Assembly: GCF_024666525.1 (NCBI RefSeq)
Contig: NZ_CP088294.1
Span: 4,154,001-4,218,000 of the forward strand
DNA: 64,000 nucleotides
Direction: 5' to 3'
From: Pseudomonas sp. J452
Lineage (GTDB): Bacteria; Pseudomonadota; Gammaproteobacteria; Pseudomonadales; Pseudomonadaceae
In this document: one piece after another, positions 3,203-59,839 of the stretch
How positions within the stretch are numbered: position 1 is the stretch's first letter
Layout: every line of letters starts with the position of its first letter
Made by a program: the position numbers and the translations under genes
Notes under the pieces: model-generated
What the model saw: the letters and a program-made list of their open reading frames with translations, nothing else
Told to the model about the DNA's origin: nothing
Databases searched by the model: none

Positions 3203-4414
3203 TTAGAGTGCGGCGAGACCGCGAGCCAGATCGGCTTTGAGGTCGGCAACATCTTCCAGGCCCACAGCCACCCGGATCAGGTTGTCGCGGATACCAGCAT
3301 TGGCCCGCTCCTGCGGCGACAGGCGGCCGTGGGAGGTGGTCGCCGGGTGGGCGATGGTGGTCTTGGTATCGCCGAGGTTGGTGGTGATCGAAATGACTTT
3401 CGTCGCATCGATAAAGCGCCAGGCCGCCTCCTTGCCACCCTTCACTTCGAAACTGACTACCGCACCGAAACCGCTCTGCTGCCGCTTGGCCAGCTCATGT
3501 TGCGGGTGGCTGGGCAGGCCGGAGTAGTAGACATGCTCGATGCCCGACTGCTGCTCCAGCCATTCGGCCAGGTGCTGGGCGCTGGCGCAATGCGCCTGCA
3601 TGCGTACGCGCAGGGTCTCCAGGCCCTTGAGGAACAGCCAGGCATTGAACGGACTGAGGGTCGGCCCGGCGGTGCGCAGGAAACCGACCACGCCTTCCAT
3701 CTGCGCCTTGCGCCCGGCCACTACGCCACCCATGCCGCGACCCTGACCATCGATGAACTTGGTCGCCGAGTGCATGACGATGTCCGCGCCGAGCTTCAGC
3801 GGTTGCTGCAGCGCCGGGGTGCAGAAGCAGTTGTCCACCGCCAGCAGCGCGCCACGGGCATGGGCGATTTCCGCCAACGCGGCGATATCCACCAGCTCGG
3901 CCAGCGGGTTGGACGGTGACTCGACGAACAGCAGCTTGGTATTGGCCTTGAACGCCGCTTCCCAGCCAGCCAGATCGGCCAGCGGCGGGTAATCCACCTG
4001 GATACCGAAGCGCTTCAGGTACTTCTCGAACAGGCTGATGGTCGAGCCGAACACGCTGCGCGACACCAGCACATGGTCGCCGGCACTGCACAGGCTCATG
4101 ACGATGGCCAGGATCGCCGACATGCCGGAGGCGGTCGCCACCGCCTGCTCGGCGCCTTCCAGGGCGGCCATGCGCTCCTCGAAGGCACGCACGGTCGGGT
4201 TGGTGTAGCGCGAGTAGACGTTGCCCGGCACTTCGCCGGCGAAGCGTGCGGCAGCATCGGCGGCGGTGCGGAACACGTAGCTGGAGGTGAGGAACAGCGC
4301 CTCACCATGCTCGCCTTCCGGCGTGCGGTGCTGCCCGGCGCGCACGGCCAGGGTGTCGAAGCCAACGCCCTCGAGGTCGCTGTCCAGCCGTCCTGCATCC
4401 CAATCCTGGCTCAT
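3203..4414 (-). CDS. metZ: O-succinylhomoserine sulfhydrylase
   Basis: A PLP enzyme that makes homocysteine directly from O-succinylhomoserine and sulfide, the direct-sulfhydrylation route to methionine used by Pseudomonas. It is 403 residues, Cys/Met metabolism fold type I. The PLP lysine is in the motif SATKFIDGQGR, preceded by VDNCFCTP, and the N-terminal YSRYTNPT signature is present. The open frame extends 26 codons further upstream. I chose the ATG at 4414 because GAGGAG lies seven bases before it and the protein then starts MSQDWD. It lies 16 bases after purF on the same strand, the conserved Pseudomonas arrangement. No irregularity was seen. Confidence 0.93.
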   Translation of the reverse strand: MSQDWDAGRLDSDLEGVGFDTLAVRAGQHRTPEGEHGEALFLTSSYVFRTAADAAARFAGEVPGNVYSRYTNPTVRAFEERMAALEGAEQAVATASGMSAILAIVMSLCSAGDHVLVSRSVFGSTISLFEKYLKRFGIQVDYPPLADLAGWEAAFKANTKLLFVESPSNPLAELVDIAALAEIAHARGALLAVDNCFCTPALQQPLKLGADIVMHSATKFIDGQGRGMGGVVAGRKAQMEGVVGFLRTAGPTLSPFNAWLFLKGLETLRVRMQAHCASAQHLAEWLEQQSGIEHVYYSGLPSHPQHELAKRQQSGFGAVVSFEVKGGKEAAWRFIDATKVISITTNLGDTKTTIAHPATTSHGRLSPQERANAGIRDNLIRVAVGLEDVADLKADLARGLAAL

Positions 4415-4430
4415 CGGCAGCTCCTCGCTA

Positions 4431-5936
<1,506 letters not shown>

Positions 5937-5971
5937 GTGACGCAACCCCTACGTTGTGAATCAGGCTAGAT

Positions 5972-6535
5972 CTACAGGCTTTCAGGCAGTTTAGGCTGCG
6001 AGAAGGCCTCTTTGAACGGCAGATCGGCCGGCGCGCTGATACCGCTCGCCAACCACTGACTGGACAGACCGAGAATCAGGTTCTTCGACCAGTCCGCCAC
6101 CATCAGAAAATGCGGCAGCAGACTCGACTGCTGCCACCATTTGTCCTGTTGCACCGGCGCCAGGCTGACCAGCCCGACCAGCACCACCACCAGCAAGGCA
6201 CCACGCGCAGCGCCGAAGACCATGCCGAGAAAACGATCGGTGCCCGACAAACCGGTCACCCGGATCAGTTCACCAATAAGGAAATTGACCAGCGCACCGA
6301 CCAGCAAGGTGGCGATGAACAAAATGGCGCAGGCGGCGATGACCCGCATCGACGGGGTTTCGATAAATTCAGTGAGGTGCTGTGACAGGGCGCCGCCGAA
6401 CATCCAGGCCACGACGCCTGCGATGATCCAGGTCAGCAGCGACAGCGCTTCCTTGAAGAAGCCGCGTTTCAGGCTGATCAGACTGGAAATGGCGATGACG
6501 GCGATAATCGCCCAATCGACCCAAGTGAATGCCAC
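5972..6535 (-). CDS. cvpA: CvpA family inner-membrane protein
   Basis: A 187-residue protein named for its need in colicin V production. The biochemical role is not settled; the family is tied to envelope homeostasis. Four membrane segments are visible: residues about 6-24 (WAIIAVIAISSLISL), 33-50 (LLTWIIAGVVAWMFGG), 64-90 (MRVIAACAILFIATLLVGALVNFLIG) and 105-125 (GAARGALLVVVLVGLVSLA). The C-terminal tail is soluble. It lies directly upstream of purF, as in E. coli and Pseudomonas. Confidence 0.9.
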   Translation of the reverse strand: MAFTWVDWAIIAVIAISSLISLKRGFFKEALSLLTWIIAGVVAWMFGGALSQHLTEFIETPSMRVIAACAILFIATLLVGALVNFLIGELIRVTGLSGTDRFLGMVFGAARGALLVVVLVGLVSLAPVQQDKWWQQSSLLPHFLMVADWSKNLILGLSSQWLASGISAPADLPFKEAFSQPKLPESL

Positions 6536-6578
6536 GATGCTGCCTACAGACGGGAAAGGCGGCGGATTTTAACAGAGC

Positions 6579-6604
6579 CAGCCCCGCCGGGTAAGCCGGG
6601 GCTG
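6579..6604 (-). terminator. Hairpin between the SPOR-protein gene and cvpA
   Basis: An eight-base inverted repeat CAGCCCCG / CGGGGCTG with a ten-base loop lies 21 bases past the stop of the SPOR-domain gene. The following bases on the minus strand (GCTCTGTTAAAA) contain only a short T-run. It may be a partial terminator separating folC/dedD transcripts from cvpA-purF. Confidence 0.45.
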
Positions 6605-6624
6605 CTATATGGTCGCGATAGAGA

Positions 6625-7191
6625 TCAGCCGTTTTCCGGCTGGAAGCGCACCACGAAGCCATTGAGCTTCTGCTGGCGGTTCAGCTGGTCACGCAGGCGA
6701 TCAGCCTCGGCGCGCTCGACCAGGGGGCCGACGAACACCCGATTCATGCCTTCGAAGGTGCGCACATAGGCGTTGTAGCCCTGGCTGCGCAGTTTTTTCT
6801 GCAGGTCCTCGGCGCCACTGCGACTGGACAGACTGGCCAGCTGCACCGACCAGCTAACTGGCAGGCTGCTGGCATCCAGACGCTCGGGCTTGCTCGGCTC
6901 GACTGCCGCTGGAGTAGCCGCAGCTGGCTCAGTCGGCGCATCGGCAACTTCCGGAACCTCCAGGGGCTCAACCGGCGGCACCTGCTCCGGCGCAATCGGC
7001 TGGGGCACCTCGACCGGATCCAGGGCAACCTCGGGCATGGCAGGCGCCTGCGGCATGGCAGGCGCATCGACTACCACCTGGCGCAGCTCATCCTCGCGGG
7101 AAAACAGCATCGGCAGAAAGATCACCGCCAGCGCAACCAGCACCAAGGCGCCGACTATCCGCTGCTTCAACCCTTTATCCAGCACTGCCAT
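6625..7191 (-). CDS. SPOR-domain cell-division protein (DedD-like)
   Basis: A 188-residue bitopic inner-membrane protein. The N-terminus is [14 protein letters not shown] followed by one membrane helix at about residues 12-30 (ALVLVALAVIFLPMLF). A Pro/Glu/Ala-rich periplasmic linker (about 45-105) leads to a C-terminal SPOR domain (about 110-185, with WSVQLASLSSRSGAEDLQKK and VFVGPLVERAEADRL). SPOR domains bind denuded glycan strands at division septa. The ATG at 7191 overlaps the end of folC by 17 bases. The longer frame reading 60 codons into folC is not needed. The folC-dedD-cvpA-purF order matches E. coli, which supports DedD orthology. Confidence 0.85.
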   Translation of the reverse strand: MAVLDKGLKQRIVGALVLVALAVIFLPMLFSREDELRQVVVDAPAMPQAPAMPEVALDPVEVPQPIAPEQVPPVEPLEVPEVADAPTEPAAATPAAVEPSKPERLDASSLPVSWSVQLASLSSRSGAEDLQKKLRSQGYNAYVRTFEGMNRVFVGPLVERAEADRLRDQLNRQQKLNGFVVRFQPENG

Positions 7192-8476
7192 TCCCTGCCT
7201 CCGCCTGTTGCCCCAGCCATTCCAGGGCCTCGGCCACACAATAGAAAGAACCGAACACGAGGATTTCATCCTCGGCGGTCGCCTGTCGACATTGTGCCAA
7301 CAATGCCTCGGCAACGCTGTCACAGGCAAGCACGTTGGCGCCGAGATTGCGCAAAGTCGCCTGCAACTCACCGACGGGCCGGCTGCGCGGACTCGGCAAA
7401 GGCGCCACCGCCCAGCCCTGCACTTCGCCCAGCAGAGGCGTCAGCACACCCGCCAGATCCTTGTCCTGCAACAGACCGAAAACCGCCAGGCGCCGCCCCA
7501 CCGGTGGCGTTGCCGCCAAGCGGGTAGCCAGGTAATCGGCGGCATGCGGGTTATGCCCGACATCCAGCAGCAACTGCAGGGTCTTGCCCTGCCACTGCAG
7601 CTGGCGGCGATCCAGGCGCCCGGTCACTCGCGTAGCCAGCAGAGCCGCCTGAATCGCACTCGACTGCCAGGGCAGACCCAGCAAGGCGTAGGCCTGGAGG
7701 GCCAGGGCAGCATTTTCCATGGGCAGGTCGAGCAATGGCAGATCGTGCAATTCCAGCACGCTACCGGCGGCATTCAGCCCCCACCAGTGCCAGTTCTGCT
7801 CGGTAACGGCGAGGTCATAGTCGCGACCACGCAAGAAGAACGGGCAATCGAGCCTGGCCACCTGATCCAGCAGCGGCTGAGGCGGATCGAGATCGCCACA
7901 CAGCGCCGGACGGCTCTGGCGGAAGATACCCGCCTTCTCGAAGGCCACCGACTCGCGCGTGTCGCCCAGCCAGTCGGCGTGGTCGATGCCGATGCTGGTC
8001 ACCAGAGCGATATCCGCATCGATCAGATTGACCGCATCCAGACGCCCGCCCAGGCCGACCTCCAGCACTACCGCATCGAGACCGGCGCGCTCGAACAGCC
8101 AGAAGGCCGCCAGGGTGCCCATCTCGAAGTAGGTCAGGGAAATTTCGCCACGCGCCGCCTCTACTGCGGCAAACGCCATGCACAGGGACGCATCGTCGGC
8201 CTGCGCATCATCGATCAGCACGCGTTCGTTGTAGTGCAGCAGGTGGGGCGAACTGTAGACCCCGACCTTGAGTCCCTGACCACGCAACAGGGAAGCCAGG
8301 AAGGCGCAGGTGGAACCCTTGCCATTGGTGCCGGTGACCGTGACCACCCGCGGCGCGGGCTTACCCAGGCCGAGCCGCTCGGCGACCTGGCGGCTGCGCT
8401 CCAGGCCCATGTCGATGGCACTGGGGTGCAGCTGCTCCAGATAGACGAGCCAGTCGGCGAGGGTACGTTCAGTCAT
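7175..8476 (-). CDS. folC: Bifunctional folylpolyglutamate synthase / dihydrofolate synthase
   Basis: Adds glutamate to dihydropteroate and extends the gamma-glutamyl tail of folates. It has 433 residues, Mur-ligase fold. The P-loop is [16 protein letters not shown] at about residues 45-60, followed by [16 protein letters not shown]. The central ATPase motif [19 protein letters not shown] and the C-terminal [12 protein letters not shown] are as in the family. Its start codon overlaps the accD stop (ATGA), and its 3' end overlaps the SPOR gene. This tight packing indicates one accD-folC-dedD transcript. Confidence 0.95.
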
Positions 8477-9363
8477 GCCGTGGCCGGAACCTGAGCAAGG
8501 GCAGGTGCCGGCAGGTGCTGCAGCTGCGCCAGCAGGCGGGCCAGGCGCGGACGCAGTTCCTGACGATGGATGATCATGTCGATGGCGCCATGCTCGAGCA
8601 GGAACTCGCTGCGCTGGAAGCCTTCCGGCAGTTTCTCGCGCACGGTCTGCTCGATCACCCGCGGGCCGGCGAAGCCGATCAGCGCGCGCGGCTCGGCAAC
8701 AATCACGTCACCGAGCATGGCCAGGCTGGCGGAAACGCCGCCGTAAACCGGGTCAGTCAGTACGGAGATGAAGGGAATGCCCTCTTCGCGCAGGCGCGCC
8801 AGTACGGCGGAAGTCTTAGCCATCTGCATCAGAGAGATCAGCGCCTCCTGCATGCGCGCACCGCCGGAAGCGGCGAAGCACACCAGCGGGCAGCGCTTTT
8901 CCAGGGCCACGTTGGCGGCACGCACGAAGCGCTCACCGACGATGGCACCCATGGAGCCCCCCATGAAGCTGAACTCGAAGGCGCAGGTGACGATCGGCAT
9001 GCCCAACAGGGTACCGCTCATGGAGATCAGCGCATCCTTCTCGCCGGTATCCTTCTGCGCGGCGGCCAGGCGGTCCTTGTACTTCTTGCTGTCACGGAAT
9101 TTCAGGCGATCCACCGGCTCCAGCTCGGCGCCGATTTCCTCGCGCCCGTCCGGGTCGAGGAAGATGTCCAGACGGCTGCGCGCATCGATGCGCATGTGGT
9201 GGTTGCACTTGGGGCAGACATCTTCGGTCTTTTCCAGCTCGGGGCGATACAGCACGGCGTCGCAGGACGGGCACTTGTGCCACAACCCTTCCGGCACCGA
9301 GCTCTTCTTGACCTCGGAACGCATGATCGAAGGGATCAGCTTTTCTCTCAACCAGTTGCTCAT
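8473..9363 (-). CDS. accD: Acetyl-CoA carboxylase carboxyltransferase subunit beta
   Basis: Beta subunit of the carboxyltransferase that moves CO2 from biotin to acetyl-CoA, giving malonyl-CoA. It has 296 residues. The N-terminal zinc ribbon has Cys31, Cys34, Cys50 and Cys53 (CPSC...CPKC). The crotonase-like core contains [14 protein letters not shown] and the oxyanion-hole region ASGGARMQE, then [16 protein letters not shown] chose the ATG at 9363 (MSNWLREKL) rather than the frame start 19 codons upstream, because GGAGAG precedes it and it aligns with the family. Confidence 0.95.
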
Positions 9364-9443
9364 GCTCACTCTCCGTAGCTGACCCGGTGCGACGCTACGC
9401 GCCGGTAAACTCATACTCATGGCCCATGCAGCCCAGCCAAACC

Positions 9444-9490
9444 GGCCTGCCTGGACGACTCAAAGACTGCTTATGGACGGCAGGCAGGCC
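9444..9490 (-). terminator. Long-loop inverted repeat between trpF and accD
   Basis: A perfect ten-base inverted repeat (GGCCTGCCTG / CAGGCAGGCC) with a 27-base loop lies 12 bases after the trpF stop and about 80 bases before accD. There is no T-tract. It could be a transcript-end hairpin or a leader structure of accD. Confidence 0.35.
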
Positions 9491-9502
9491 CCGCCCGTCA
9501 CA

Positions 9503-10123
9503 TCAGGCGCCGCGTGCCGCACGAATAAAAGCCCGAACCTTGCCGGCATCCTTGATGCCCTTCGCCGACTCCACGCCACCACTGATATCCACCGCATAGG
9601 GACGTACCTGGGCGATGGCTGCCGCGACGTTATCCGGGGTCAACCCGCCAGCCAGGATCACCGGCTTGGGCAGCTCGGCCGGCACCAGCGACCAGTCGAA
9701 GGCCAAACCGGTACCACCGGGGACACCCTCGACGAAGGTGTCCAATAGAACGCCGGAAGCACTGGGGTAGCGCGCCATCTGCGCGGCAATATCATCGCCG
9801 GCCTTGACCCGCAGCGCCTTGATGTAAGGGCGACCGTAGCCCTCGCACTGCTCGACCGACTCATCACCATGGAACTGGAGGAGATCCAGTGGCACCTGCG
9901 TCAGGATCTGCTGCAACTCGGCCCGCGGCATATCCACGAACAGGCCAACCGTGGTCACGAACGGCGGCAACGCCGCAATGATCTGCTGCGCCTGCGCCAC
10001 GCTGACCGCACGCGGACTCTTGGCATAGAACACCAAACCTATGGCATCGGCACCCGCAGCAGCGGCTGCAAGTGCATCCTCGACACGGGTAATACCGCAA
10101 ATCTTGCTGCGAACGGCTGACAA
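9503..10123 (-). CDS. trpF: Phosphoribosylanthranilate isomerase
   Basis: Amadori isomerase of tryptophan synthesis (PRA to CdRP). It is a 206-residue TIM barrel. The catalytic Cys is in KICGITR near residues 7-13, and the catalytic Asp lies in GVLLDTF around residue 133. [11 protein letters not shown] and [10 protein letters not shown] form the phosphate-binding end. The start appears to be TTG at 10123, preceded by AAGGTG seven bases upstream; no ATG or GTG lies between it and the catalytic region. It sits between truA and accD, away from other trp genes, as is normal in Pseudomonas. Confidence 0.93.
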
Positions 10124-49585: not shown

Positions 49586-50035
49586 TCAACCGGCGCGGAA
49601 AATCAGATGATCTTCCCAGTCATCCTCGGCCACGCTGTTTTCGCTGAGCATGCGTCCGGACTGGGAAATGCGTTCGTGGTGCACCGCATCGCGGTCGCCG
49701 CAGACCAGATGGTGCCAGAGCGGCAGGTCCTTGCCCTCGCTGACCAGGCGGTAGCCACAGGTCGGCGGCAGCCACTGGAACTGATCGGCCTGCGCCGGCG
49801 TGAGCTGGATGCAGTCCGGCACCTGGGCGCGGCGATTGGCGTAGTCGCTGCAGCGGCAGGTCTGCATATCCAGCAGTTTGCAGGCGATACGCGTGTAGTA
49901 GACGCTGCCGTCATCCTCGTCTTCGAGTTTCTGCAGGCAGCACAGGCCGCAACCGTCGCACAGCGACTCCCACTCGTCCTGGTCGAGCTGAGCGAGAGTC
50001 TTGCGTTTCCAGAAGGGTTCGACTTTGGCGGCCAT
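49586..50035 (-). CDS. ycgN: YcgN family cysteine-cluster protein
   Basis: A 149-residue protein of the YkgJ/YcgN (UPF0260) family. Cysteines are clustered as [14 protein letters not shown], later [17 protein letters not shown], then DCIQL and CGYRL, plausibly a metal or Fe-S site. The role is unknown. In pseudomonads and enterobacteria it lies close to ycgL; here ycgL is about 10 kb away (59839-60132), separated by the chemoreceptor and the accessory operon. Confidence 0.88.
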
Positions 50036-50273: not shown

Positions 50274-51896
50274 ATGAAAAGCTGGAAGATCAGAACCCAT
50301 CTGTTACTGCTGGTCGTAGCCCTGTTAGCGGGTCTGCTGCTGGTCGGCCTGCTCGGCATGCAGGGTCTCAAAACCACCGTACGCGGCCTGGAAACCGTCT
50401 ATCTCGACCGCGTGGTGCCATTGCGCGATCTCAAGCTGATCGCCGACCTATATGCGGTAAACATCGTCGACGCCACCCACAAGGCACGCAGCGGCACCCT
50501 CACCCCGGCAGCGGCACAAGCGTTGATCGAGCAGGCCGAACAACGCATCGAAGACACCTGGCAGGCCTACCTGGCGACCCAACTGATCACCGAAGAGACG
50601 CGCCTGATCGACGAGATCAAACCGCTGATGGCCAACGCCGAGCAGCCGCTAGGCGAGCTGCAGCGCATGCTGCGGCAAAACGATCTCGTGGCTGTAGGGC
50701 AATTCGCCGACAGCCGCCTCTACCCGCTGATCGACCCGCTCTCGGCGAAATTCTCCGAACTGATCGAGGTGCAATTGCTGGAAGCCAAACACCAGTTCGA
50801 GCTGGGCCAGCGCACCTATAGCAACGACCTGCAGCTGAGCAGTGGCGTACTGCTGCTCGCTCTGCTTTTCGGTGCAGGCCAGGCGCTGTACTTTGCCCGC
50901 CTGCTGAAACGCCAGCTGGGTGCCGAGCCGGGCGAGCTGGAGGCCATCAGCGCACGCATCGCCCTGGGCCAACTGGCCACCCAGGCAGGCCTGGAACAGG
51001 CCAGCACCGGGGTGATGAAGTCGGTGCAAAGCATGCACCACGGCCTGCGCGACATGATCGGCAATATCGGCGAGGCTTCCGAGCAGATCGAATGCGCCTC
51101 GCTGCAACTGGCCGCCTCCTCCGAGCAGGTGCTCAACAGCGCCAATATCCAGAGCGATACCGCCTCGGCCATCGCCGCCACCATGGAAGAGATGGCGGTG
51201 AGCATCAGCCAGATCGCCGAGAACGCCCAGCAAACCCGCGACATGGCGCAGAAAGCCGGCAGCCTGAGTGACGATGGCCTGCAGGTGACCGCAGCGGCCA
51301 TCGCGGAAATGCGTGGCATCGCCGAACTGGTGACGCAGAGCGCGGCGGATATCGAACACCTGGCCGACCAGTCGGCCAACATCAGCGCCATCGTCGACGT
51401 GATCAAGGGCATCGCCGAACAGACCAACCTACTGGCCCTGAATGCCGCCATCGAGGCCGCGCGGGCCGGCGAGCAGGGTCGTGGCTTCGCCGTGGTGGCC
51501 GATGAAGTGCGCGGCCTGGCCAGCCGTACGGCGCAGTCGACCACGGAGATCGTCGGCCTGGTCGACTCGATCCAGAGCGGCATGCACAAGGCCAAGAGCA
51601 GTATGAGCGCCGGACGCGAGCGCCTCAGCAGCGGCACGCAGCTGGTGGAACAGGCCGGCACGGCGATGCAGGACATCCGCACGGCGCTGAGCGAGTCGCT
51701 GCAGGCGGTCAACGTCATCTCCATGTCCCTGCAGGAGCAGCGCGCCGCCAGTGAACAGGTAGCGATGAACGTGGAGCGGGTGGCGCAGATAGTCGAGGAG
51801 AACTCGGCAGCCCAGGGCGGCATCGTTCAGGCCATCCAGGGCCTGCAGGCCATGTCCGGACGCTTGCAGGGCATGTTGCAGCGCTTCAGTTTCTGA
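50274..51896 (+). CDS. Methyl-accepting chemotaxis protein
   Basis: A 540-residue transmembrane receptor. TM1 is at about residues 8-30 ([23 protein letters not shown]). A four-helix-bundle periplasmic domain runs over about 31-185. TM2 is at about 188-210 ([19 protein letters not shown]), then a divergent HAMP segment ([22 protein letters not shown]). The cytoplasmic hairpin tip is [20 protein letters not shown]. The periplasmic part resembles 4HB_MCP sensors; the ligand is unknown. It is transcribed alone just before the accessory operon. There is no methylesterase or CheW gene nearby. Confidence 0.92.
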
Positions 51897-51922: not shown

Positions 51923-52408
51923 TCAGGCCTCCTGAGGGCGCTTGACCGGAAAAGACACGAAAGGCTTGATCTCCTTGAGCACGAACATGCTCTGCATCTC
52001 CTTGATGCCGGGCAATTGCCGGACCACCGACATGGCAAAGTCAGCAAACGAATCGAGGTCGCGCGCCACCACCTGTAACAGGAAGTCGGCGTCGCCACCG
52101 ATGCTGTAGCACGCCACCACATCCTCCAGCTGCATCACTTCCTGCTCGAACTTCTTCGCTTCGGCTTCACTGTGGCGGTCAATGTTGATGCGGATGAACA
52201 CCATGACCCCCAGCCCGATCTTGCGCCGGTCGAGCACCGCCCTATAACCCTGGATATAGCGATGCTCCTCGAGCTGGCGCACCCTCCGCCAGCAGGGCGA
52301 GGCAGACATGCCGATGTGGTCGGCCAAGGTCTGATTGGTGATCCTGCCGTCCTGTTGCAGGGCTGTAAGGATTTTGACATCTGTCAGATTTAGCGCCTGC
52401 TCGGTCAT
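51923..52408 (-). CDS. Lrp/AsnC-family transcriptional regulator
   Basis: A 161-residue Lrp/AsnC regulator. The HTH is at about residues 8-55 (LTDVKILTALQQDGRITNQ, then SPCWRRVRQLEE), joined to the RAM ligand-binding beta sheet (VVACYSIGGDADFLLQVVARDL). These proteins usually sense amino acids. The ATG at 52408 (MTEQALNL) has GGTGG upstream, whereas the ATG four codons earlier has none. It is divergent from the eight-gene operon that begins at 52768, so I infer that it controls that operon and senses an amino-acid-like product or precursor. Confidence 0.9.
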   Translation of the reverse strand: MTEQALNLTDVKILTALQQDGRITNQTLADHIGMSASPCWRRVRQLEEHRYIQGYRAVLDRRKIGLGVMVFIRINIDRHSEAEAKKFEQEVMQLEDVVACYSIGGDADFLLQVVARDLDSFADFAMSVVRQLPGIKEMQSMFVLKEIKPFVSFPVKRPQEA

Positions 52409-52767
52409 AAATTCCACCATCCATTGCGAAGTAGGTAGATTTTACCTATTTCGCTTTTACTGGCAATTGAAATAGAAATTTTTTTCCCGGCCAAAAAGCG
52501 TAGCATTTTTCCAACTTCAGAACTTATGAAGTTCATAACTTCGGACAGCCATAACTTCTTCAACCGGGATTACCGCGCCTTACTCTCCTGGGAAACCCTG
52601 AACAATATAGCTCCGTGAAATCGCCAGCCTGTACCCGCACGGCTACTCTGGCGCACTCTTCTCTGCGCTTATTTTTCAGATTATTTCCAGGCAAATCGAT
52701 GCAGGACGCATCGCTAAATAAATAAACCAAAGTTGGTCGCAACCTTTTTGCGACCCCAGGGTGATCA
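52409..52767. promoter_or_regulatory. Control region between the Lrp/AsnC gene and the accessory operon
   Basis: This 359-base region without a gene is clearly AT-richer than its flanks (AT-rich 52437-52490). It holds GAACTTATGAAGTTC (52520-52534, a 6-3-6 palindrome), two direct copies of ATAACTTC (52535-52542 and 52551-52558), and two perfect hairpins just before the first gene: CGATGC-AGGAC-GCATCG (52697-52713) and GGTCGCAA-CCTTT-TTGCGACC (52735-52755). The palindrome and repeats fit an Lrp-type operator array; the hairpins could be leader structures. No known riboswitch was recognised. Confidence 0.6.
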
Positions 52768-53145
52768 ATGATTCTTCATCTGGTTTTTTTCAAGTTCGAT
52801 GAACCCTATCAATGGTGCGACGACGAAGTCATCGACGCCGAGACAGCAACACGCCAGCACCCAGTGCATATTAACGAGATAGCGGGCTGGGCTTGTGGAA
52901 GAAATATCAGCTTGCGCAAACAGGCCATGGACTTCGTGGTGATGGGCTTGTTCGAAAACCAGCAGGCGTTATCTGCGTTCCTCATTCACCCCAACCATCA
53001 GCTAGGGGTACAGAAGTGGCAAAAGATTGCCAGCTGGCAGGTGGTGGATATTGACATCGGCAGTGACACTACAAAATTTTTCGGGCTGTTCAATAGCTGG
53101 TCTGATTTCAGCCTGACAACGCTCGAAGAATTAAAGGCTTCTTGA
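52768..53145 (+). CDS. Dabb-domain (stress-responsive A/B barrel) protein
   Basis: A 125-residue protein beginning MILHLVFFKFDEP and containing MDFVVMGLFENQQALSAFLIHPNHQLGVQKW. This has the form of the dimeric alpha/beta-barrel (Dabb) family, which includes some enzymes such as olivetolic acid cyclase and many of unknown role. It is the first gene of the accessory operon, with a weak AGGGTG SD five bases before ATG. GC is near 50 percent, clearly below the flanking genes, which suggests transfer. Function in the pathway is not known. Confidence 0.75.
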   Translation: MILHLVFFKFDEPYQWCDDEVIDAETATRQHPVHINEIAGWACGRNISLRKQAMDFVVMGLFENQQALSAFLIHPNHQLGVQKWQKIASWQVVDIDIGSDTTKFFGLFNSWSDFSLTTLEELKAS

Positions 53146-53162
53146 TAGTCGTGGAGGACTCA

Positions 53163-53585
53163 ATGAATTTCGATGCTGCTGTTCACAAGTGCGTAATCGT
53201 AGTCGACAGCGCCCTGGGTCTAGGACATGCCGCCAATGCGGTCAGCGTCATTGGTGTCAGCCTGGGACGTTCGGTCTACGGCCTGGTCGGGCCTGACCTG
53301 CAGAGCCATGACAAGGTTAACTACCCCGGCGTTATCTACGCACCGCTGCCCATTCTGCTTGCCAGCAATGAACAGCTGCAGGCACTGCAAGAGAAAGCAC
53401 TGGCAGACGAGGAAATCCATAGCATGCCATTCAGTGCCCTGGCGCAATCCTGCAAGACCTATCAGGAATATGAGGTGCGCATCTCCGAGGCCGACAGCTC
53501 GGCCATCGAATTGGTTGCGATTGGTTTGATTGGGCCACAGAAAAAAATCAGCAAGTTGACCGGTAATCTTCCACTGTTCAAATAG
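53163..53585 (+). CDS. DUF2000-domain protein
   Basis: A 140-residue protein with the DUF2000 pattern: HKCVIVVDSALGLGHAANAV near the start, SLGRSVYGLVGPDLQSHD, PLPILLASNEQLQALQEKA, SCKTYQEYE and the end GPQKKISKLTGNLPLF. DUF2000 proteins are thought to adopt a PTH2-like (peptidyl-tRNA hydrolase II) fold, but no activity is established. The ATG at 53163 follows GGAGG at seven-base spacing; an upstream in-frame start (53142) overlaps the previous gene. Lower GC than the flanks. Confidence 0.75.
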   Translation: MNFDAAVHKCVIVVDSALGLGHAANAVSVIGVSLGRSVYGLVGPDLQSHDKVNYPGVIYAPLPILLASNEQLQALQEKALADEEIHSMPFSALAQSCKTYQEYEVRISEADSSAIELVAIGLIGPQKKISKLTGNLPLFK

Positions 53586-53598
53586 CAAGGAGGTTGTA

Positions 53599-54999
53599 GT
53601 GTACGCTTTATTCAAGCCGGAACTTCTGGAGTTGGCCCGTACGACTTACCAGCAACATGCACTGTTTGAGCGCGGCGGCATTTCTGCCGGGGAGTTGGTG
53701 CATATTCAACTTGAGCGCCTTAGACAGATAATCCGCCATGTAAAAACAGAGTCGCCGTTCTACCGAGACAGACTATCTTTTCTGTCCAAAAACGCCATCG
53801 ACACATTGGACTGGCAGACGTTTCGCAAGTTGCCCTTCACCACCAAGAACGATTTACGCGACGCGGGCCACAACATGGCAGCCGCGTCATTGAAAAAAGC
53901 CTGGATCTATTACGAGACCACCGGCACCACGGGTGCAGCGACACCGTGCCCACGCAACGAACAGGATTCGATATTCAATAATACGCCGCTGATATTGCGT
54001 TACCGTGAGTTGTTTCGCGCCCACGCTCAGCAACATATTGTCGGCGTAATGGGCCCTACGGAATTGCACTCTACCGGCGACACTTTTGAAGATGTTTGTC
54101 GCAGCCTGGGCCACACCGTAGTGAAAATGTGGCCACGCTCACCCGTGGTTGGGCTGGATCGTGCGGTCACCTTGATCCGGGAGCTGAAGATCACCGCCCT
54201 GGTCTGTACACCGGCAGTCGCCATCAATCTGGCCAAGCATCTGCTCAAAAAGGGCCAGAAGCCCTCCGCGCTGGGGGTAAAACTGATTTTCACCCTGGGT
54301 GAGCTGACTACACCGGCGTTGCTGCGCAATATCGGCGATGTCTGGGGCAGTGCCGTGTACAACTGCATGTATGCCTCGCAAGAGTCGTCGATCCTGGCCG
54401 CCAGCGACAAGGACGGCAACCTCTGCACGGTTCCCTTGAACGTGGTCTATGAGGTGATCAACCCACTGACCGGCCAAGTGCTGGAGCCGGTGAACGCCAG
54501 AATGACCGGCGAACTGGTGATCACCCACCTTTACCCAGGGCAAAAACCGCTGATCCGCTATCGCACCGGGGATATGGTCAGGGCGCAGGTAATGGATAAG
54601 GGCAAGTGGCAGATCATTCCCATCGGGCGGGTCAGGGACACCTTGGTCATCAACGGCCACAACCACTGCGCCTACGACATCGAAGCCGCCCTGTTCGAAC
54701 ACCTTAAAGGCTGCCTGGATTACCACATTCAGGTGGAAACCGTGGCGGGTGTCGATCAGTTGAGCGTCACCTTGGAGCTGGAGCAGAACAGCACAGCCCA
54801 CAACGACCTGGAGGCCGTTGCCCGCTCCATGCAAGCCAGGCTCGGTGCCCGTACCCAGATCACCCTAGGCTCCACCGATGCCGTAACCGGCACTGCGGCG
54901 ATGGTCAGCTGGAAGGCTGCCAGGCTCCACGACAAGCGCAGCGGTAGTGACAACCGCGAGCGCGAAACCGCTTTGCAGATTGCGGCGCGGAGGGCCTGA
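53599..54999 (+). CDS. PaaK-like adenylate-forming enzyme
   Basis: A 466-residue ANL-superfamily protein nearest to phenylacetate-CoA ligase. Visible motifs: YYETTGTTGAATPCPR (residues 104-119, the A3 loop), YRTGDM (321-326), and GRVRDTLVINGHNHCAYDIE (343-362). The GHNHxxxDIE phrase also recalls fatty acyl-AMP ligases. The C-terminal Lys motif is not the canonical PxxGKxxR; the nearest Lys is in AMVSWKAARLH. Start GTG at 53599 with AAGGAGG upstream. It is expected to adenylate a carboxylate such as an amino acid or aromatic-like acid, but there is no carrier-protein gene in the operon to receive the product. Confidence 0.8.
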   Translation: MYALFKPELLELARTTYQQHALFERGGISAGELVHIQLERLRQIIRHVKTESPFYRDRLSFLSKNAIDTLDWQTFRKLPFTTKNDLRDAGHNMAAASLKKAWIYYETTGTTGAATPCPRNEQDSIFNNTPLILRYRELFRAHAQQHIVGVMGPTELHSTGDTFEDVCRSLGHTVVKMWPRSPVVGLDRAVTLIRELKITALVCTPAVAINLAKHLLKKGQKPSALGVKLIFTLGELTTPALLRNIGDVWGSAVYNCMYASQESSILAASDKDGNLCTVPLNVVYEVINPLTGQVLEPVNARMTGELVITHLYPGQKPLIRYRTGDMVRAQVMDKGKWQIIPIGRVRDTLVINGHNHCAYDIEAALFEHLKGCLDYHIQVETVAGVDQLSVTLELEQNSTAHNDLEAVARSMQARLGARTQITLGSTDAVTGTAAMVSWKAARLHDKRSGSDNRERETALQIAARRA

Positions 55000-55001
55000 G
55001 C

Positions 55002-55982
55002 ATGGCAGACGAGCTCGGCAATAGCACAACGCCTCCGCGCGGCCCTCATCCCTGGGTGTACTTCGAGGGTCAGGTGGTAGCAGCTGCAGAAGCCCTGATA
55101 CCCGTCACGACCCAAGCCTTCAATTACGGCACAGCGGTTTTCGAGGGCATCCGCGCCTATGTCGCGGACTGTGGAGAGCTGAATGTCTTCCGCTTGGATG
55201 ACCACCTGAAACGGCTGGAGAATTCGGCCCGGCTGCTGCAACTGGAAAACCTGCCGCGACGCGCCGAGATGAGAGCAATCATCCTCGACTTGCTGCGACG
55301 CAACGAGGCGACCTCCGATAGCTATGTCAGGCCCCTGGCCTACAAGAAGGCACTGCTACCAGGCGTTGGTTTTGGCGTGAAGCTCACCGGCGTCAGCACC
55401 GGCCTGGTGATCAACACCCTGCCGATGGGCGCCTACATGCCCGCAGGCGGTATTCGCTGCACCATTTCGAGTTGGCGGCGCATACCCGATGTTTCGCTGC
55501 CGGCGCGAGCCAAGATCACCGGCAGTTATGCCAATTCGGCGCTGGCCATGGAGTCGGCGCAACGCAATGGATTCGACGATGCCTTGATGCTGAATGTGCA
55601 CGGCAATCTCGCCGAGTCGACAACCTCCAATGTCTTCGTTGTAAAAGACGGCTGCCTTATCACCCCGCCTCTGAGCGCCCACATTCTTGAGGGCATTACC
55701 CGCGACACGGTGATGACCCTGGCTCGAGAAGAACTGGGCTTGAAAGTCATCGAGCGAGACATCTCCTTTTCCGAGCTGTTTTCAGTCGATGAATGTTTTC
55801 TGGCCGGTACTGGCGTCGAGATCGTACCCGTGACGCAAATCGACCACTACGTGTTGCAAGAGAGCGGAGTGGGCGAGATCAGCGCTGCGATCAGGAGCCT
55901 CTACCTGGAGACGGTAAAAGGCCTGAACAGTAAATACGCCCATTGGTTGAGCCCGGTATCCGATGATTGCTCTGGAGATTGA
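55002..55982 (+). CDS. Branched-chain-type aminotransferase (fold type IV)
   Basis: A 326-residue PLP enzyme of the BCAT/IlvE family. Motifs: NYGTAVFEGIRAYVADCG at about 41-58, SYVRPLAYKK at 107-116, and the PLP Lys171 in SLPARAKITGSYANSALAME. NLAESTTSNVFVVKDG and LEGITRDTVMTLAREELG are also typical. It starts two bases after the ligase stop, so is probably translationally coupled. In this setting a likely substrate is a 2-oxo acid derived from prephenate, made into an amino acid, but BCAT-type enzymes are broad and this cannot be read from the sequence. Confidence 0.88.
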   Translation: MADELGNSTTPPRGPHPWVYFEGQVVAAAEALIPVTTQAFNYGTAVFEGIRAYVADCGELNVFRLDDHLKRLENSARLLQLENLPRRAEMRAIILDLLRRNEATSDSYVRPLAYKKALLPGVGFGVKLTGVSTGLVINTLPMGAYMPAGGIRCTISSWRRIPDVSLPARAKITGSYANSALAMESAQRNGFDDALMLNVHGNLAESTTSNVFVVKDGCLITPPLSAHILEGITRDTVMTLAREELGLKVIERDISFSELFSVDECFLAGTGVEIVPVTQIDHYVLQESGVGEISAAIRSLYLETVKGLNSKYAHWLSPVSDDCSGD

Positions 55983-56608
55983 TGACTATGGACAGCAAAT
56001 TCTTGGATTTGGGTTTGGCCGATTGGCGCGAAGTGGTGATCCACACCTTGGGGCCCAACGGGACCAGCAGTGAAGCGGCCGCTGGCTTCTTCAGTGAATG
56101 GTTCGGGCATCGATATCCAGGTTCACGCTTACAGCTCAACCTCAGCGATTCCTACGAGCATGCCCGTACCAGCATGGACGAACACGCCCCAGTGGTGTTG
56201 ATCGTGGCCAATGCCTATCCGCAGATTCATAACTTCTATATGGACCCGCGGTTAAGCCTGGTGGCGACATTCGTGTTCGACACGCCGTTGTACGGGTTGG
56301 CGAGCAAGGGCCCCTTGACCACCAGCAAGCTGACGGTGGCCACCCACCCTGCGCCGCTGCTCCTGATTGAGGAGCTATTGCCTCAGGGCCTGGAGATCAA
56401 CTCCGTAATCCTCGCCCTGTCCACCAGCGCCGCTGCGGCGGCAGCGGCCAGGGGCGAGGTCGATGTGGCGCTGACCACGGAAGTGGCGGCGAACATCCAC
56501 GGCCTGCATTTCATCTCGAGCACCCGCCCGATCCGCATGCTCTGGTCTGTCTTCGCGCTTACCCGCTGGAGCGCGCAGTCGGCCGAGGCCAGCTTGCGCT
56601 GCAGCTGA
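55982..56608 (+). CDS. BacA-like protein (prephenate decarboxylase family)
   Basis: A 208-residue protein resembling B. subtilis BacA of bacilysin synthesis, a prephenate decarboxylase that does not aromatise its product. Shared phrases include TLGPNGTSSEAAAGFF (BacA has TLGPEGTSSE), NAYPQIHNFYMDPRLSL with DTPLYGLA, ATHPAPLLLIEELL, STSAAAAAAARGEVDVALTTE, and the end RPIRMLWSVF (BacA: PMSWSLF). Its 208 residues are close to BacA's 204. The ATG overlaps the aminotransferase stop (TGATG), and another in-frame ATG lies two codons on. The C-terminal tail has a frame alternative but the annotated frame has better GC3. Family comparison is from memory of BacA, not from a search. Confidence 0.8.
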   Translation: MTMDSKFLDLGLADWREVVIHTLGPNGTSSEAAAGFFSEWFGHRYPGSRLQLNLSDSYEHARTSMDEHAPVVLIVANAYPQIHNFYMDPRLSLVATFVFDTPLYGLASKGPLTTSKLTVATHPAPLLLIEELLPQGLEINSVILALSTSAAAAAAARGEVDVALTTEVAANIHGLHFISSTRPIRMLWSVFALTRWSAQSAEASLRCS

Positions 56609-56675
56609 TCGCTGTGCCCTGCCTGGTCCCGACCGAGGTTGGGCGACCACCTGACTACCACTGATTGAGGTCATG

Positions 56676-57245
56676 ATGCCTGTCTTGAAGCTGCACACAC
56701 TCGACTCGACCCCGGAAAAAAGCAAAGCGCTCCTGCAGAGCTCCATCGACAACTTTGGCTGGATCCCCAACCAGAGTGCCTACATGTCGGAATCCCCTTC
56801 GCTACTGGGCGCCTACCAGCGCGCACATGATCTGTTTATCGACAGCTCGTTGACCGAAGAAGAAAAAGCGGTGGTGTGGATGACCACCGGCGTGGCCAAC
56901 CACTGCGCGTACACGATCCAGGCCCACGCTTTCATTGCTCTGGGCAAAGGCGTGGATGAGCGCGTGGTCGACGCCCTTGCCCATGCGCCCTCCCGCCTCG
57001 ATGCGCGCCTGTTGGCGTTGCACGGTTTTACCCTGGAAGTGATTGATTGCCGCGGCAGCCTGAGCAAGCCGGCCATTGATGCATTCCTGCGCGCAGGCTT
57101 CAGCAAACAGAACATGCTGGATGTGATTCTCGGCGTGTCGCAGAAGAACATGTCGACCATTTTGAACAGCATTGCCGGCACCGAAATCGACGAGCGCTTC
57201 AAATGGCAGGCCTTTCAAGGGCTCAAGAAGACGGCCGAGGCTTGA
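56676..57245 (+). CDS. AhpD/carboxymuconolactone-decarboxylase-like protein
   Basis: A 189-residue helical protein of the CMD/AhpD fold. It begins MPVLKLHTLDSTPEKSKALL and has EEKAVVWMTTGVANHCAYTIQAHAF, where the family usually has a CxxC pair and a His (C-A-Y-C-x-x-A-H). Here Cys77 and His84 remain but the second Cys is Thr80, so a disulfide-type peroxidase mechanism is unlikely. The ATG at 56676 has GAGG at five-base spacing; an adjacent ATG at 56673 is the alternative. The gap of 67 bases from the BacA-like gene is one of the two largest in the operon. Confidence 0.82.
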   Translation: MPVLKLHTLDSTPEKSKALLQSSIDNFGWIPNQSAYMSESPSLLGAYQRAHDLFIDSSLTEEEKAVVWMTTGVANHCAYTIQAHAFIALGKGVDERVVDALAHAPSRLDARLLALHGFTLEVIDCRGSLSKPAIDAFLRAGFSKQNMLDVILGVSQKNMSTILNSIAGTEIDERFKWQAFQGLKKTAEA

Positions 57246-57248
57246 ACG

Positions 57249-58202
57249 ATGCTTCATCTGGACGGCGACTCGGTCAAAAAACTGCTGAATTTCAAGCTCG
57301 GCCTGCGTCTCAGCGAGGAAGCTTTCAGGCTGCACTCCTCAGGCCAGGTAGAGCAGCCATTGCGCACCATCGTCCGCGGGCGCGCGAACGAGCTGATGGG
57401 GGTAATGCCTGCATACATCAAGTCGGGTCCCTATCAGGGGTTCGGCTTGAAGTCGGTGGTGGTCAGGCTCGACGCCGACGTCCGTGGCCCGTCCCATATG
57501 GGCAGCGTATTGATTTACGACGAGGTCGGCGTATCCCCGGTCGTCGCGGTAGACGCCGGGGCGATCACCGAGATCCGCACGGCCGCTGCCTCGGCACACG
57601 CGACCCGTATTCTTGCGGCACCCGATGCTCACCGCGTGGCGATTCTGGGCACCGGTTTGCAAGCTCGGGCCCACCTGCTGGCAATGCGGGCAGTGCGGCC
57701 CATCCGGCAAGTCTCCGTATGGGGGCGTAGCGAAGCCGCATGCCAGGAGTTTGCCGCCTGGAGCAAACGCACAGGTGATTTGCCGGTCTCGATTTGCGCC
57801 ACGGCGGCCGAGGCCGTGCACGCCAGCGACATCATCTGTACCACCACGGCCACTCGCGCGCCGATTCTGTCCCGTGCCGATCTGCCGCAGCGTTGCCATG
57901 TCAACGCAATCGGCTCTTCGGCTCTCGGTTTCCAGGAACTGCATGAGGACATTTTCCAGGGCAGCGCCTTGTTCACTGACAGCAACCCAGCGGTGCTTGC
58001 CGCAGCCGAATGCGTGATCAAGGCCGTGGACAAAGGCCTGTTGCCCGGCCAGGAGCCGGGGATGGAGATCGGCACACTTTCGGCCGATGAGGTACGCGCC
58101 CAGGGACAGGGCGTGACGATCTTCAAATCGGTCGGATTGGCGGTGCAGGACCTGGTTTTTTCCCGTGAAGTCATCCGGCAGTGGCTCGCCGCGCCCCGTT
58201 GA
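57249..58202 (+). CDS. Ornithine cyclodeaminase/mu-crystallin family protein
   Basis: A 317-residue NAD(P)-binding protein of the OCD/mu-crystallin family. Lys68 (GFGLKSVVV) and Arg110 (EIRTAAASAHA) match conserved catalytic and substrate residues, and the Rossmann loop is AILGTGLQARAHLL (131-144). The catalytic Asp expected after NAIG in true ornithine cyclodeaminase is Ser (NAIGSSALGFQEL, residues 219-231). It is therefore probably not a cyclodeaminase, and more like an imine reductase, alanine-dehydrogenase-type or SbnB-like enzyme. It starts three bases after the AhpD-like stop. Confidence 0.85.
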   Translation: MLHLDGDSVKKLLNFKLGLRLSEEAFRLHSSGQVEQPLRTIVRGRANELMGVMPAYIKSGPYQGFGLKSVVVRLDADVRGPSHMGSVLIYDEVGVSPVVAVDAGAITEIRTAAASAHATRILAAPDAHRVAILGTGLQARAHLLAMRAVRPIRQVSVWGRSEAACQEFAAWSKRTGDLPVSICATAAEAVHASDIICTTTATRAPILSRADLPQRCHVNAIGSSALGFQELHEDIFQGSALFTDSNPAVLAAAECVIKAVDKGLLPGQEPGMEIGTLSADEVRAQGQGVTIFKSVGLAVQDLVFSREVIRQWLAAPR

Positions 58203-58276
58203 AACTGCTGACAGTCTTACGTGCGCAGGCGTGAACCTTCGTACAAAACAATAAGAAATAACCTGAGGAGTACCCC

Positions 58277-58897
58277 ATGCTCGACCTGACACAAGTACTT
58301 ACCTACTCGCTAGCGCTGGGCATTGCTGCCGCCATTCCCGGCCCTGGCATGGCGGCGCTGGTCGCAAGAAGCGTCAGCGGTGGGGCATTATCGGGCTTTT
58401 GCCTGCTGTTCGGATTGATCCTTGGCGATCTGACCTACCTGTCCTTTGCCGTTTTTGGCCTGGCGATGATTGCCGAGCACTTCAATGCGTTGTTCCAGCT
58501 GGTGCGCTGGGGAGCGGCGCTGTACCTGTGCTACCTGGCCTGGCAATTCTGGTTCGCCAATCATCAGGCTATCGAAGTGGGCAAGCCGGCCAAGAAGAAG
58601 GAGCTGCTGTCGGCGGCGGTATCCGGGTTGACCATTACCCTGGGCAACCCAAAGACCATTGCCTTCTATCTGGCGCTTTTACCGCTGGTGATCAACCTGG
58701 AAATGGTCTCGCTACAGACCTGGGGGCTGATGCTGGTGCCACTGACCATCGTGGTGCTGCTGGGCGTCGGTGCGCTATTCATTATCGCCGCCGTGCGCAT
58801 CCGGCACCTGCTGTCTAGCCAACGCGCGCAACAGCAGTTGTTCCGTGGCGCGGCGGCCATCATGGTAGCTGCTGCCGCGTCGATGCTGATTCGCTGA
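58277..58897 (+). CDS. LysE-family amino acid exporter
   Basis: A 206-residue inner-membrane protein with about six hydrophobic helices. The RhtB/LysE signature AAIPGPGMAALVARSVSGG is at about 16-34, with LVRWGAALYLCYLAWQFW and GLTITLGNPKTIAFYLALLPL. The family exports amino acids and derivatives. As the last gene of the operon, 74 bases after the OCD-like gene, it is the likely exporter of the pathway product or protects against it. Confidence 0.9.
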   Translation: MLDLTQVLTYSLALGIAAAIPGPGMAALVARSVSGGALSGFCLLFGLILGDLTYLSFAVFGLAMIAEHFNALFQLVRWGAALYLCYLAWQFWFANHQAIEVGKPAKKKELLSAAVSGLTITLGNPKTIAFYLALLPLVINLEMVSLQTWGLMLVPLTIVVLLGVGALFIIAAVRIRHLLSSQRAQQQLFRGAAAIMVAAAASMLIR

Positions 58898-58909: not shown

Positions 58910-59839
58910 CTAGTAACCGCGGGAAAAATCCACCAAGCCCCGCAGCGCCTGGCCGGTCTGGAAGCGCTGCAGATTGTCGAGGAACAGGCTGATCATCGCC
59001 GCCGGCTCGGTCGGCGCCGAGCTGTGTCCGCTGAGCAGCAGACGCGGCGCGTTCCAGAACGGATGGCCTTGCGGCAAAGGCTCCTGACGGCAGACATCGA
59101 GTAACGCGCCTGCCAGCAGGCCGGCATTCAGGGCGGCCAGCAGATCCTCATCGACCACCGCTACGCCGCGCCCGGCATTGATGAACAGGGCCTGCGGCGC
59201 CATCCGCGCAAACAGTGCGGCATCATAGATATCACGGGTAGCCGGGGTGTCCGGCAGCAGGTTGATCAGCACCTCGGCCCAGCCGGCCAGCTCGGTCAAT
59301 CCGTCCATGCCGCGTATCTCGGTGAACGGTTCGATGGCGCGTGGAATACGCGCAATGCCGCGCAGCTCGACGCCGAACGGTGCGAGGAAGCGTGCCACCG
59401 CGCAGCCAATATCGCCGGCACCGACGATCAGCACGCGCATGCCGCGCAGGCTGGGCGGCGGCAGAGGATCCCAGCGCTGCTCCACCTGACTGGCCAGGCG
59501 TGGCAGCAGACGGCGGCGATGGGCCAGCAGATAGGTCAGCACGTATTCGGCCATGACCTGGCCAAAGATGCCGACTGCCCGGCTCAGCCGGTAGTCGCGC
59601 GGCAGGTCGGGCGCCAGCAGTGGCGTGATACCGGCCCAGGTCGACTGCAGCCATTGCGGCCTGTGGCCCTGGCGCAGCAGGGGCACCAGCAGATCCGGCT
59701 GTCCCAGCCAGACCGGGCAACTGGCGGCCTGGCGGGCCAGCTCCTGCGCATCGCCACAGACCAGTTGCAGCTGCGGCGCGGCGGCCGTGAGCAGCTCGGC
59801 ATAGTGCGCCTGGGCCTGTTCGGCGAGCAGGACGCGCAT
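58910..59839 (-). CDS. D-isomer-specific 2-hydroxyacid dehydrogenase (GhrA-like)
   Basis: A 309-residue NAD(P)-dependent dehydrogenase, probably reducing glyoxylate/hydroxypyruvate-like acids. The Rossmann motif is VLIVGAGDIGCAVARFLAPFG (about 135-155). The catalytic Arg is in INAGRGVAVVDEDLL, and the His lies near SGHSSAPTEPAAM at the C-terminus. The start overlaps the stop of ycgL by one base (TGATG). It is convergent with the accessory operon, 12 bases from the LysE stop, and is a conserved neighbour of ycgL in pseudomonads. Confidence 0.9.
   Translation of the reverse strand: MRVLLAEQAQAHYAELLTAAAPQLQLVCGDAQELARQAASCPVWLGQPDLLVPLLRQGHRPQWLQSTWAGITPLLAPDLPRDYRLSRAVGIFGQVMAEYVLTYLLAHRRRLLPRLASQVEQRWDPLPPPSLRGMRVLIVGAGDIGCAVARFLAPFGVELRGIARIPRAIEPFTEIRGMDGLTELAGWAEVLINLLPDTPATRDIYDAALFARMAPQALFINAGRGVAVVDEDLLAALNAGLLAGALLDVCRQEPLPQGHPFWNAPRLLLSGHSSAPTEPAAMISLFLDNLQRFQTGQALRGLVDFSRGY

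Follow-up and report, generated by a model that had tools for sequence, protein, structure and literature searches.

The window analysed here (64,000 nucleotides from the genome of Pseudomonas sp. J452, which consists of one contig of 4.86 Mb) contains, at positions 51923–58897, a complete set of nine genes, namely a divergent Lrp regulator and eight closely spaced genes that encode, in this order, Dabb, DUF2000, PaaK-like, BCAT, BacA-like, AhpD-like, OCD (ornithine cyclodeaminase/mu-crystallin-type) and LysE proteins. We consider it fairly likely that the product made and exported by this operon is L-2,5-dihydrophenylalanine or another non-aromatic amino acid very closely related to it. Accessory DNA of Pseudomonas, the Halomonas group, Vibrio and Pantoea would thereby carry an antibiotic-type amino acid pathway that had been reported from an insect symbiont, and identification of the co-travelling genes makes the missing steps from prephenate to dihydrophenylalanine assignable gene by gene. 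The operon is of interest in that no role has been assigned to most of its steps or to one little-studied family; the DUF2000 family gains a testable metabolic context.

The product assignment draws mainly on the analogy with Photorhabdus. According to a passage in a review, Photorhabdus makes dihydrophenylalanine using such a decarboxylase and a transaminase, and a title cited in PMC8310351 ties Erwinia to dihydrophenylalanine synthesis. In eight Photorhabdus genomes (L029 and L071 not among them), one BacA-family match per genome was found at E <= 0.001, and this single match lies in the operon described here, with the BCAT gene directly upstream. Given that the sole BacA homologue of these eight genomes, from a genus reported to make dihydrophenylalanine, sits in this operon, the product is most likely dihydrophenylalanine-like. 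The Photorhabdus locus matches the one here in all eight genes and in their order (nine loci; a tenth, L071, ends at a contig end) but differs in that no Lrp homologue was detected alongside in these nine PaaK-bearing loci. An earlier sequence-only reading of this DNA recognised no described cluster with this combination of genes, a view that does not hold up, as the same set surrounds the only BacA-family gene of the eight genomes. The gene set was found in no paper among the listed titles and abstract beginnings, which does not show its absence from the literature, and it is not mentioned in the term-searched papers on Erwinia and Photorhabdus.

By sequence, the BacA-like protein groups with non-aromatising prephenate decarboxylases (the BacA/AerD/SalX/Photorhabdus type) and not with dehydratases. 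Its identity is 47% to Photorhabdus proteins annotated as 'prephenate decarboxylase' and, outside its own clade (74–95% identity), 45–58% to the listed relatives annotated as BacA or prephenate decarboxylase; a protein of Aquipseudomonas campi is 95% identical to it, and one relative is named Erwinia amylovora (P0056). The protein is a stand-alone catalytic domain which, compared with the full-length PheA that the genome also encodes (L001), has neither the chorismate mutase and ACT regions nor the TRF motif, a dehydratase signature. Its fold is prephenate dehydratase-like, with other periplasmic-binding-type folds scoring close behind; searches of solved structures with the BacA family gave no single-sequence match at E 10 and, with a profile, two matches (E 0.42–0.43) that were taken as chance. 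An ordinary prephenate dehydratase, with an operon that supplies phenylalanine, would agree with the common fold and with a weak Pfam PDT match (18.2 bits), but this match is below the family cut-off, PheA is already present, and the motif and both regions are missing; we rejected this explanation as exceedingly improbable. The sequence-only reading had named a match to nothing but ordinary dehydratases as one outcome that would refute it; the sequence comparison favours the BacA type instead.

The distribution of the operon was surveyed in a scan of one genome per species, which gave 139 stretches with the pattern, 122 of them relatives; the best 80 of the 122 were used and amount to 79 loci, a best-scoring subset unevenly spread over taxa, in which neighbours were counted as tblastn matches within 6 kb of BacA. 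A PaaK gene is near BacA in 55 of these loci, accompanied by BCAT in all 55, by Dabb in 53, by OCD in 51 and by DUF2000 in 34. Of 24 gammaproteobacterial loci (21 of the 79 and three plasmid loci), 22 have the full set of eight genes, the incomplete ones being a degraded copy (L012) and a locus at a contig end (L071). The grouping is thus more than chance, and the co-occurrence in other genomes that the sequence-only reading proposed as a test was observed. The hosts belong to Pseudomonas, Vreelandella, Thiopseudomonas, Acerihabitans, Pantoea, Photobacterium, Vibrio and Photorhabdus, and many of these genera are also named among the 120 listed of 389 PaaK homologues found at E <= 1e-80. AhpD and LysE genes are near BacA almost only in gammaproteobacterial loci. 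The PaaK-BCAT-BacA core recurs in Actinobacteria, at times beside nonribosomal peptide synthetase or polyketide synthase (NRPS/PKS) genes, with a shortened operon in Streptomyces, and among 60 PaaK-bearing loci, in which NRPS/PKS presence was judged from matches inside each stretch, 19 keep this core together with NRPS/PKS matches. For example, NRPS/PKS clusters on Streptomyces plasmids (L090, 11145–16795; L091, 11191–16735) include a Dabb-PaaK-BCAT-BacA-OCD-DUF1330-PhzF cassette, which suggests a non-aromatic amino acid, presumably a building block of the peptide. These clusters share the Dabb, PaaK, BCAT, BacA and OCD enzymes with the operon but have no DUF2000, AhpD or LysE match nearby, and DUF1330 and PhzF-like genes follow instead.

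The operon is a horizontally acquired accessory insertion. A BacA match was found in only six of 398 genomes of the genus (close in this genome and in the degraded copy, at 30–32% identity in the other four) and in three of 369 genomes of the class, two of them weak. The G+C content of the operon is 58.5%, compared with 63.9% before and 66.1% after it. In six relatives, taken from 40 genomes for the flank comparison, the flanking genes, for YcgN (49586–50035) and a hydroxyacid dehydrogenase (58910–59839), are 87–93 bp apart in three (between match ends) and 0.84–0.86 kb apart in two, and YcgN was not found in one; here the distance is 8.9 kb and holds the operon and a chemotaxis receptor gene, for which no match was found between the flanking genes of the six. 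Furthermore, a P. aeruginosa plasmid carries the operon with 83.9% DNA identity over 85% of the query. This plasmid (L087; NZ_CP096823.1, record positions 3283–10102), of 335 kb and from a blood isolate, has the whole operon with Lrp, and the same stretch also holds an IS21-like helper gene and a replication gene. Phage cargo was rejected, with zero matches in 50,697 phage records.

The identities between loci suggest a mosaic history. In five Photorhabdus loci, the proteins from Dabb to BacA are 40–51% identical to those of this operon and AhpD-OCD-LysE 63–73%; the corresponding values for the Vibrio/Pantoea/Photobacterium/Acerihabitans type are 50–65% and 46–67%. Since unrooted trees of three groups cannot conflict, the mosaic was judged from trees with outgroups. 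In the OCD tree, Photorhabdus joins the Pseudomonas type (local support 0.997), whereas in the PaaK-BCAT-BacA tree it joins Actinobacteria and not Pseudomonas (0.97; 0.99 when DUF2000 is included, with fewer outgroups). The second module is represented in this comparison by OCD alone because AhpD and LysE had no outgroup in the trees. Searches with OCD at E <= 1e-40 matched only this genome among 149 of the genus and three of 229 in the class (this one and two at 33–35%), and did not demonstrate a stand-alone AhpD-OCD-LysE module without BacA in these genomes.

By analogy with Photorhabdus, a pathway can be proposed. The BacA-type enzyme, judging from its family, would decarboxylate prephenate to a dihydro-hydroxyphenylpyruvate and leave the ring non-aromatic, and the adjacent BCAT gene product would transaminate the result, as in the Photorhabdus precedent. 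On the route to dihydrophenylalanine, the hydroxyl left by BacA would have to go, with a two-electron reduction: by formula, the BacA product (C9H10O4) plus two hydrogens minus water gives the keto acid of dihydrophenylalanine (C9H10O3). From the structures, the 2,5-diene could arise directly if hydride is delivered, the hydroxyl leaves and one double bond shifts. OCD, being the sole clear NAD(P)H enzyme of the operon, is the candidate reductant, and transamination and reduction might proceed in either order; its nearest solved structures are thiomorpholine-carboxylate dehydrogenase (4bv8, 7.4e-36) and a mu-crystallin homologue (2i99, 2.7e-33). Dabb proteins are small barrels of a superfamily that includes isomerases, and the one encoded here is a possible double-bond isomerase. 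The PaaK-like ligase may help to build the amino acid rather than conjugate it, given that it is retained with BCAT and BacA beside NRPS/PKS genes. LysE would then export the product, and the Lrp protein would sense an amino acid and control the operon.

Several points weigh against dihydrophenylalanine as the product. The first five genes of the Photorhabdus operon are only 40–51% identical to those here, so the products could differ, and our confidence is lowered by the grouping of the Photorhabdus core genes with the actinobacterial ones. There is no obvious dehydroxylase gene in the operon, and 4 of the 55 PaaK-bearing loci lack OCD near BacA. We know of no dihydrophenylalanine scheme that needs a PaaK ligase, and the OCD-family reactions known to us are deamination or the reduction of C=N bonds and do not include the step proposed.

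A rival explanation, close to the view of the sequence-only reading, is a different prephenate-derived product, such as an amide, ester or dipeptide in which the PaaK-like ligase has joined the dihydro-amino acid, or an OCD-made conjugate; the OCD family includes imine reductases. Such a product would be compatible with the presence of BCAT and BacA near PaaK in 55 of 55 PaaK-bearing loci and with a match of the ligase to the BagE/FevW synthetase model, albeit well below the cut-off (74 of 800 bits). Nevertheless, we regard it as unlikely: no gene for a second building block was seen, and in the 19 of 60 loci where the ligase is kept with BCAT and BacA next to NRPS/PKS matches, a separate conjugating ligase seems unneeded. 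The same 19 loci weaken the case for activation of the finished product by the adenylating enzyme, as suggested in the sequence-only reading. PaaK-type models are among the best NCBIfam matches of this ligase, all below their own cut-offs, and no second PaaK match was found in this genome at E <= 0.001. The BCAT protein scores above cut-off with two NCBIfam models for branched-chain transaminases, and the genome has one other full-length BCAT match (34% identical).

The bacilysin operon of Bacillus is one of the closest known systems. It comprises a cupin isomerase, an ATP-grasp ligase, SDR reductases, an aminotransferase and an exporter, and thus resembles the operon described here in starting from prephenate with a BacA-type enzyme and in having an aminotransferase, a ligase and an exporter. 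However, no cupin (as already noted from the sequence alone), SDR, ATP-grasp or MFS family is represented among the nine proteins, and membership in the bacilysin operon type was rejected; the BacA matches of B. pumilus (two loci) are 37–40% identical. Of what the sequence-only reading proposed, a BacA-type enzyme (by sequence) with an aminotransferase and an exporter in an accessory operon is supported, whereas the combination is not unprecedented and product activation has lost ground. Breakdown or detoxification of an aromatic compound, without any synthesis, is a further alternative, as aromatic catabolism employs proteins with PaaK, CMD/AhpD and Dabb folds; however, none of the nine proteins is a ring-opening or ring-hydroxylating enzyme, and a BacA-type enzyme with an exporter points to synthesis, which leaves this alternative with very little probability. 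More tentatively than the product itself, and with more doubt than conviction, we propose a widespread mobile prephenate-diverting pathway with a non-bacilysin toolkit, in which PaaK, Dabb and a reductase of the mu-crystallin type stand in for the cupin isomerase and the SDR reductases and carry out a new reductive dehydroxylation, and in which DUF2000, repeatedly associated with prephenate decarboxylases across several phyla, acts as a dihydro-ring enzyme or in tRNA-level protection against a phenylalanine mimic.

What the present analysis adds is the spread of the operon, its mosaic history and DUF2000 as a companion of BacA-type genes. The DUF2000 family, named by no paper in the literature searched, has a PTH2 (peptidyl-tRNA hydrolase 2)-like fold and accompanies BacA-type genes in several phyla, including in otherwise different gene sets. 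Both observations would fit self-protection by DUF2000 acting on tRNA mischarged with a phenylalanine look-alike, in which case the operon would carry its own immunity, an idea compatible with dihydrophenylalanine as the product. We consider this role improbable. The N-terminal PTH2 motif is not recognisable in the DUF2000 alignment (A2), which contains no PTH2 sequence because eight genomes that carry the operon or relatives of it gave only one weak match to true PTH2. In addition, none of 29 other DUF2000 loci in a Pseudomonadota sample has a PaaK or BacA match in the flanks of ~1.5 kb. Finally, DUF2000 is rarer beside NRPS/PKS genes in the 60 PaaK-bearing loci (5/37 versus 14/23, p 0.0002); within Actinobacteria there is no clear difference (5/14 versus 14/23, p 0.18), so that phylogeny alone may explain the pattern, and it was not used as support.

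A second group of genes, which we did not recognise, has the order BacA, DUF2000, FGE-sulfatase-like protein, molybdopterin oxidoreductase and transporter. It resembles the operon in that BacA adjoins DUF2000 and a transporter is present, but the other partner enzymes differ and there is no PaaK, BCAT or OCD near BacA. The group was confirmed with Pfam in L068 (9947–13800), L067 (9713–12593) and L082 (9962–13024, with the molybdopterin oxidoreductase fused), and a similar arrangement was seen by eye, from starts of open reading frames, in L069, L072, L073 and L075. In L133–L136, L154 and L155 (alphaproteobacterial-type and others), DUF2000 adjoins an AraC-family-like regulator, again by eye.

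A Lrp homologue is found near BacA in 13 of 13 PaaK-bearing gammaproteobacterial loci outside Photorhabdus. The imperfect inverted repeat between the Lrp and Dabb genes is a candidate Lrp operator, as judged from its sequence and position; of 12 intergenic regions, 3 contain a repeat above the threshold used, the present one among them, and the repeats differ. A GGTAgAT-yCTACC-like core was spotted by eye in several relatives in the intergenic alignment.

The families in Table 1 were assigned from Pfam and NCBIfam profile matches to the nine proteins. The nine reading frames, the gene families and the junctions given in the sequence-only reading (54999/55002 between PaaK and BCAT, TGATG at 55980–55984 and 57245/57249 between AhpD-like and OCD) all agree with this analysis. 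The BacA-like protein may start at ATG 55988 rather than 55982, since nearly all aligned homologues begin at the equivalent of the former, and the probable start of DUF2000 is ATG 53163 instead of TTG 53142, which overlaps Dabb. A scan for promoters and terminators was not used (promoter-like sites, 1 versus a mean of 2.6 in shuffles; terminator-like sites, 13 versus 6.5, sd 2.7).

Table 1. Features of the operon and its immediate surroundings (positions in the window)
Feature	Position	Strand	Evidence and remarks
Methyl-accepting chemotaxis protein	50274..51896	+	named by eye from sequence; same extra segment, outside the operon proper
Lrp/AsnC-family regulator	51923..52420	-	PF01037 2.1e-19, HTH_24 1.5e-16; divergent from operon
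Imperfect inverted repeat, candidate Lrp operator	52426..52454	.	between Lrp and Dabb; also scores as terminator-like hairpin
Dabb (dimeric alpha/beta barrel) protein	52768..53145	+	PF07876 3.3e-13
DUF2000 protein, peptidyl-tRNA hydrolase 2-like fold	53163..53585	+	DUF2000 6.5e-34
PaaK-like adenylate-forming ligase	53599..54999	+	AMP-binding 1.6e-9, AMP-binding_C_2 6.8e-6; GTG start
BCAT-type (class IV) aminotransferase	55002..55982	+	Aminotran_4 9e-55
BacA-type, probable non-aromatising prephenate decarboxylase	55982..56608 (start perhaps 55988)	+	PDT 18.2 bits, cut-off 25.2
AhpD/CMD-like protein	56673..57245	+	CMD 4.4e-6
Ornithine cyclodeaminase/mu-crystallin-type NAD(P)H enzyme (OCD)	57249..58202	+	PF02423 (OCD_Mu_crystall) 9e-54
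LysE-type amino-acid exporter	58277..58897	+	PF01810 1.9e-23

The degraded copy in Pseudomonas sp. sp1636 (L012, 8417–11503) has no PaaK, BCAT or AhpD match and shortened BacA and OCD genes, and retains Lrp, DUF2000 and LysE. Another gammaproteobacterial locus (L157, 842–1917), with Lrp 77% identical and DUF2000 63% identical and different at its end, has no PaaK match in the next 1.4 kb and is perhaps a second remnant of the operon. In Streptomyces mexicanus (L034, 5502–6784), a chorismate mutase and a VitK2_biosynth (MqnA-like) protein are encoded just upstream of Dabb.

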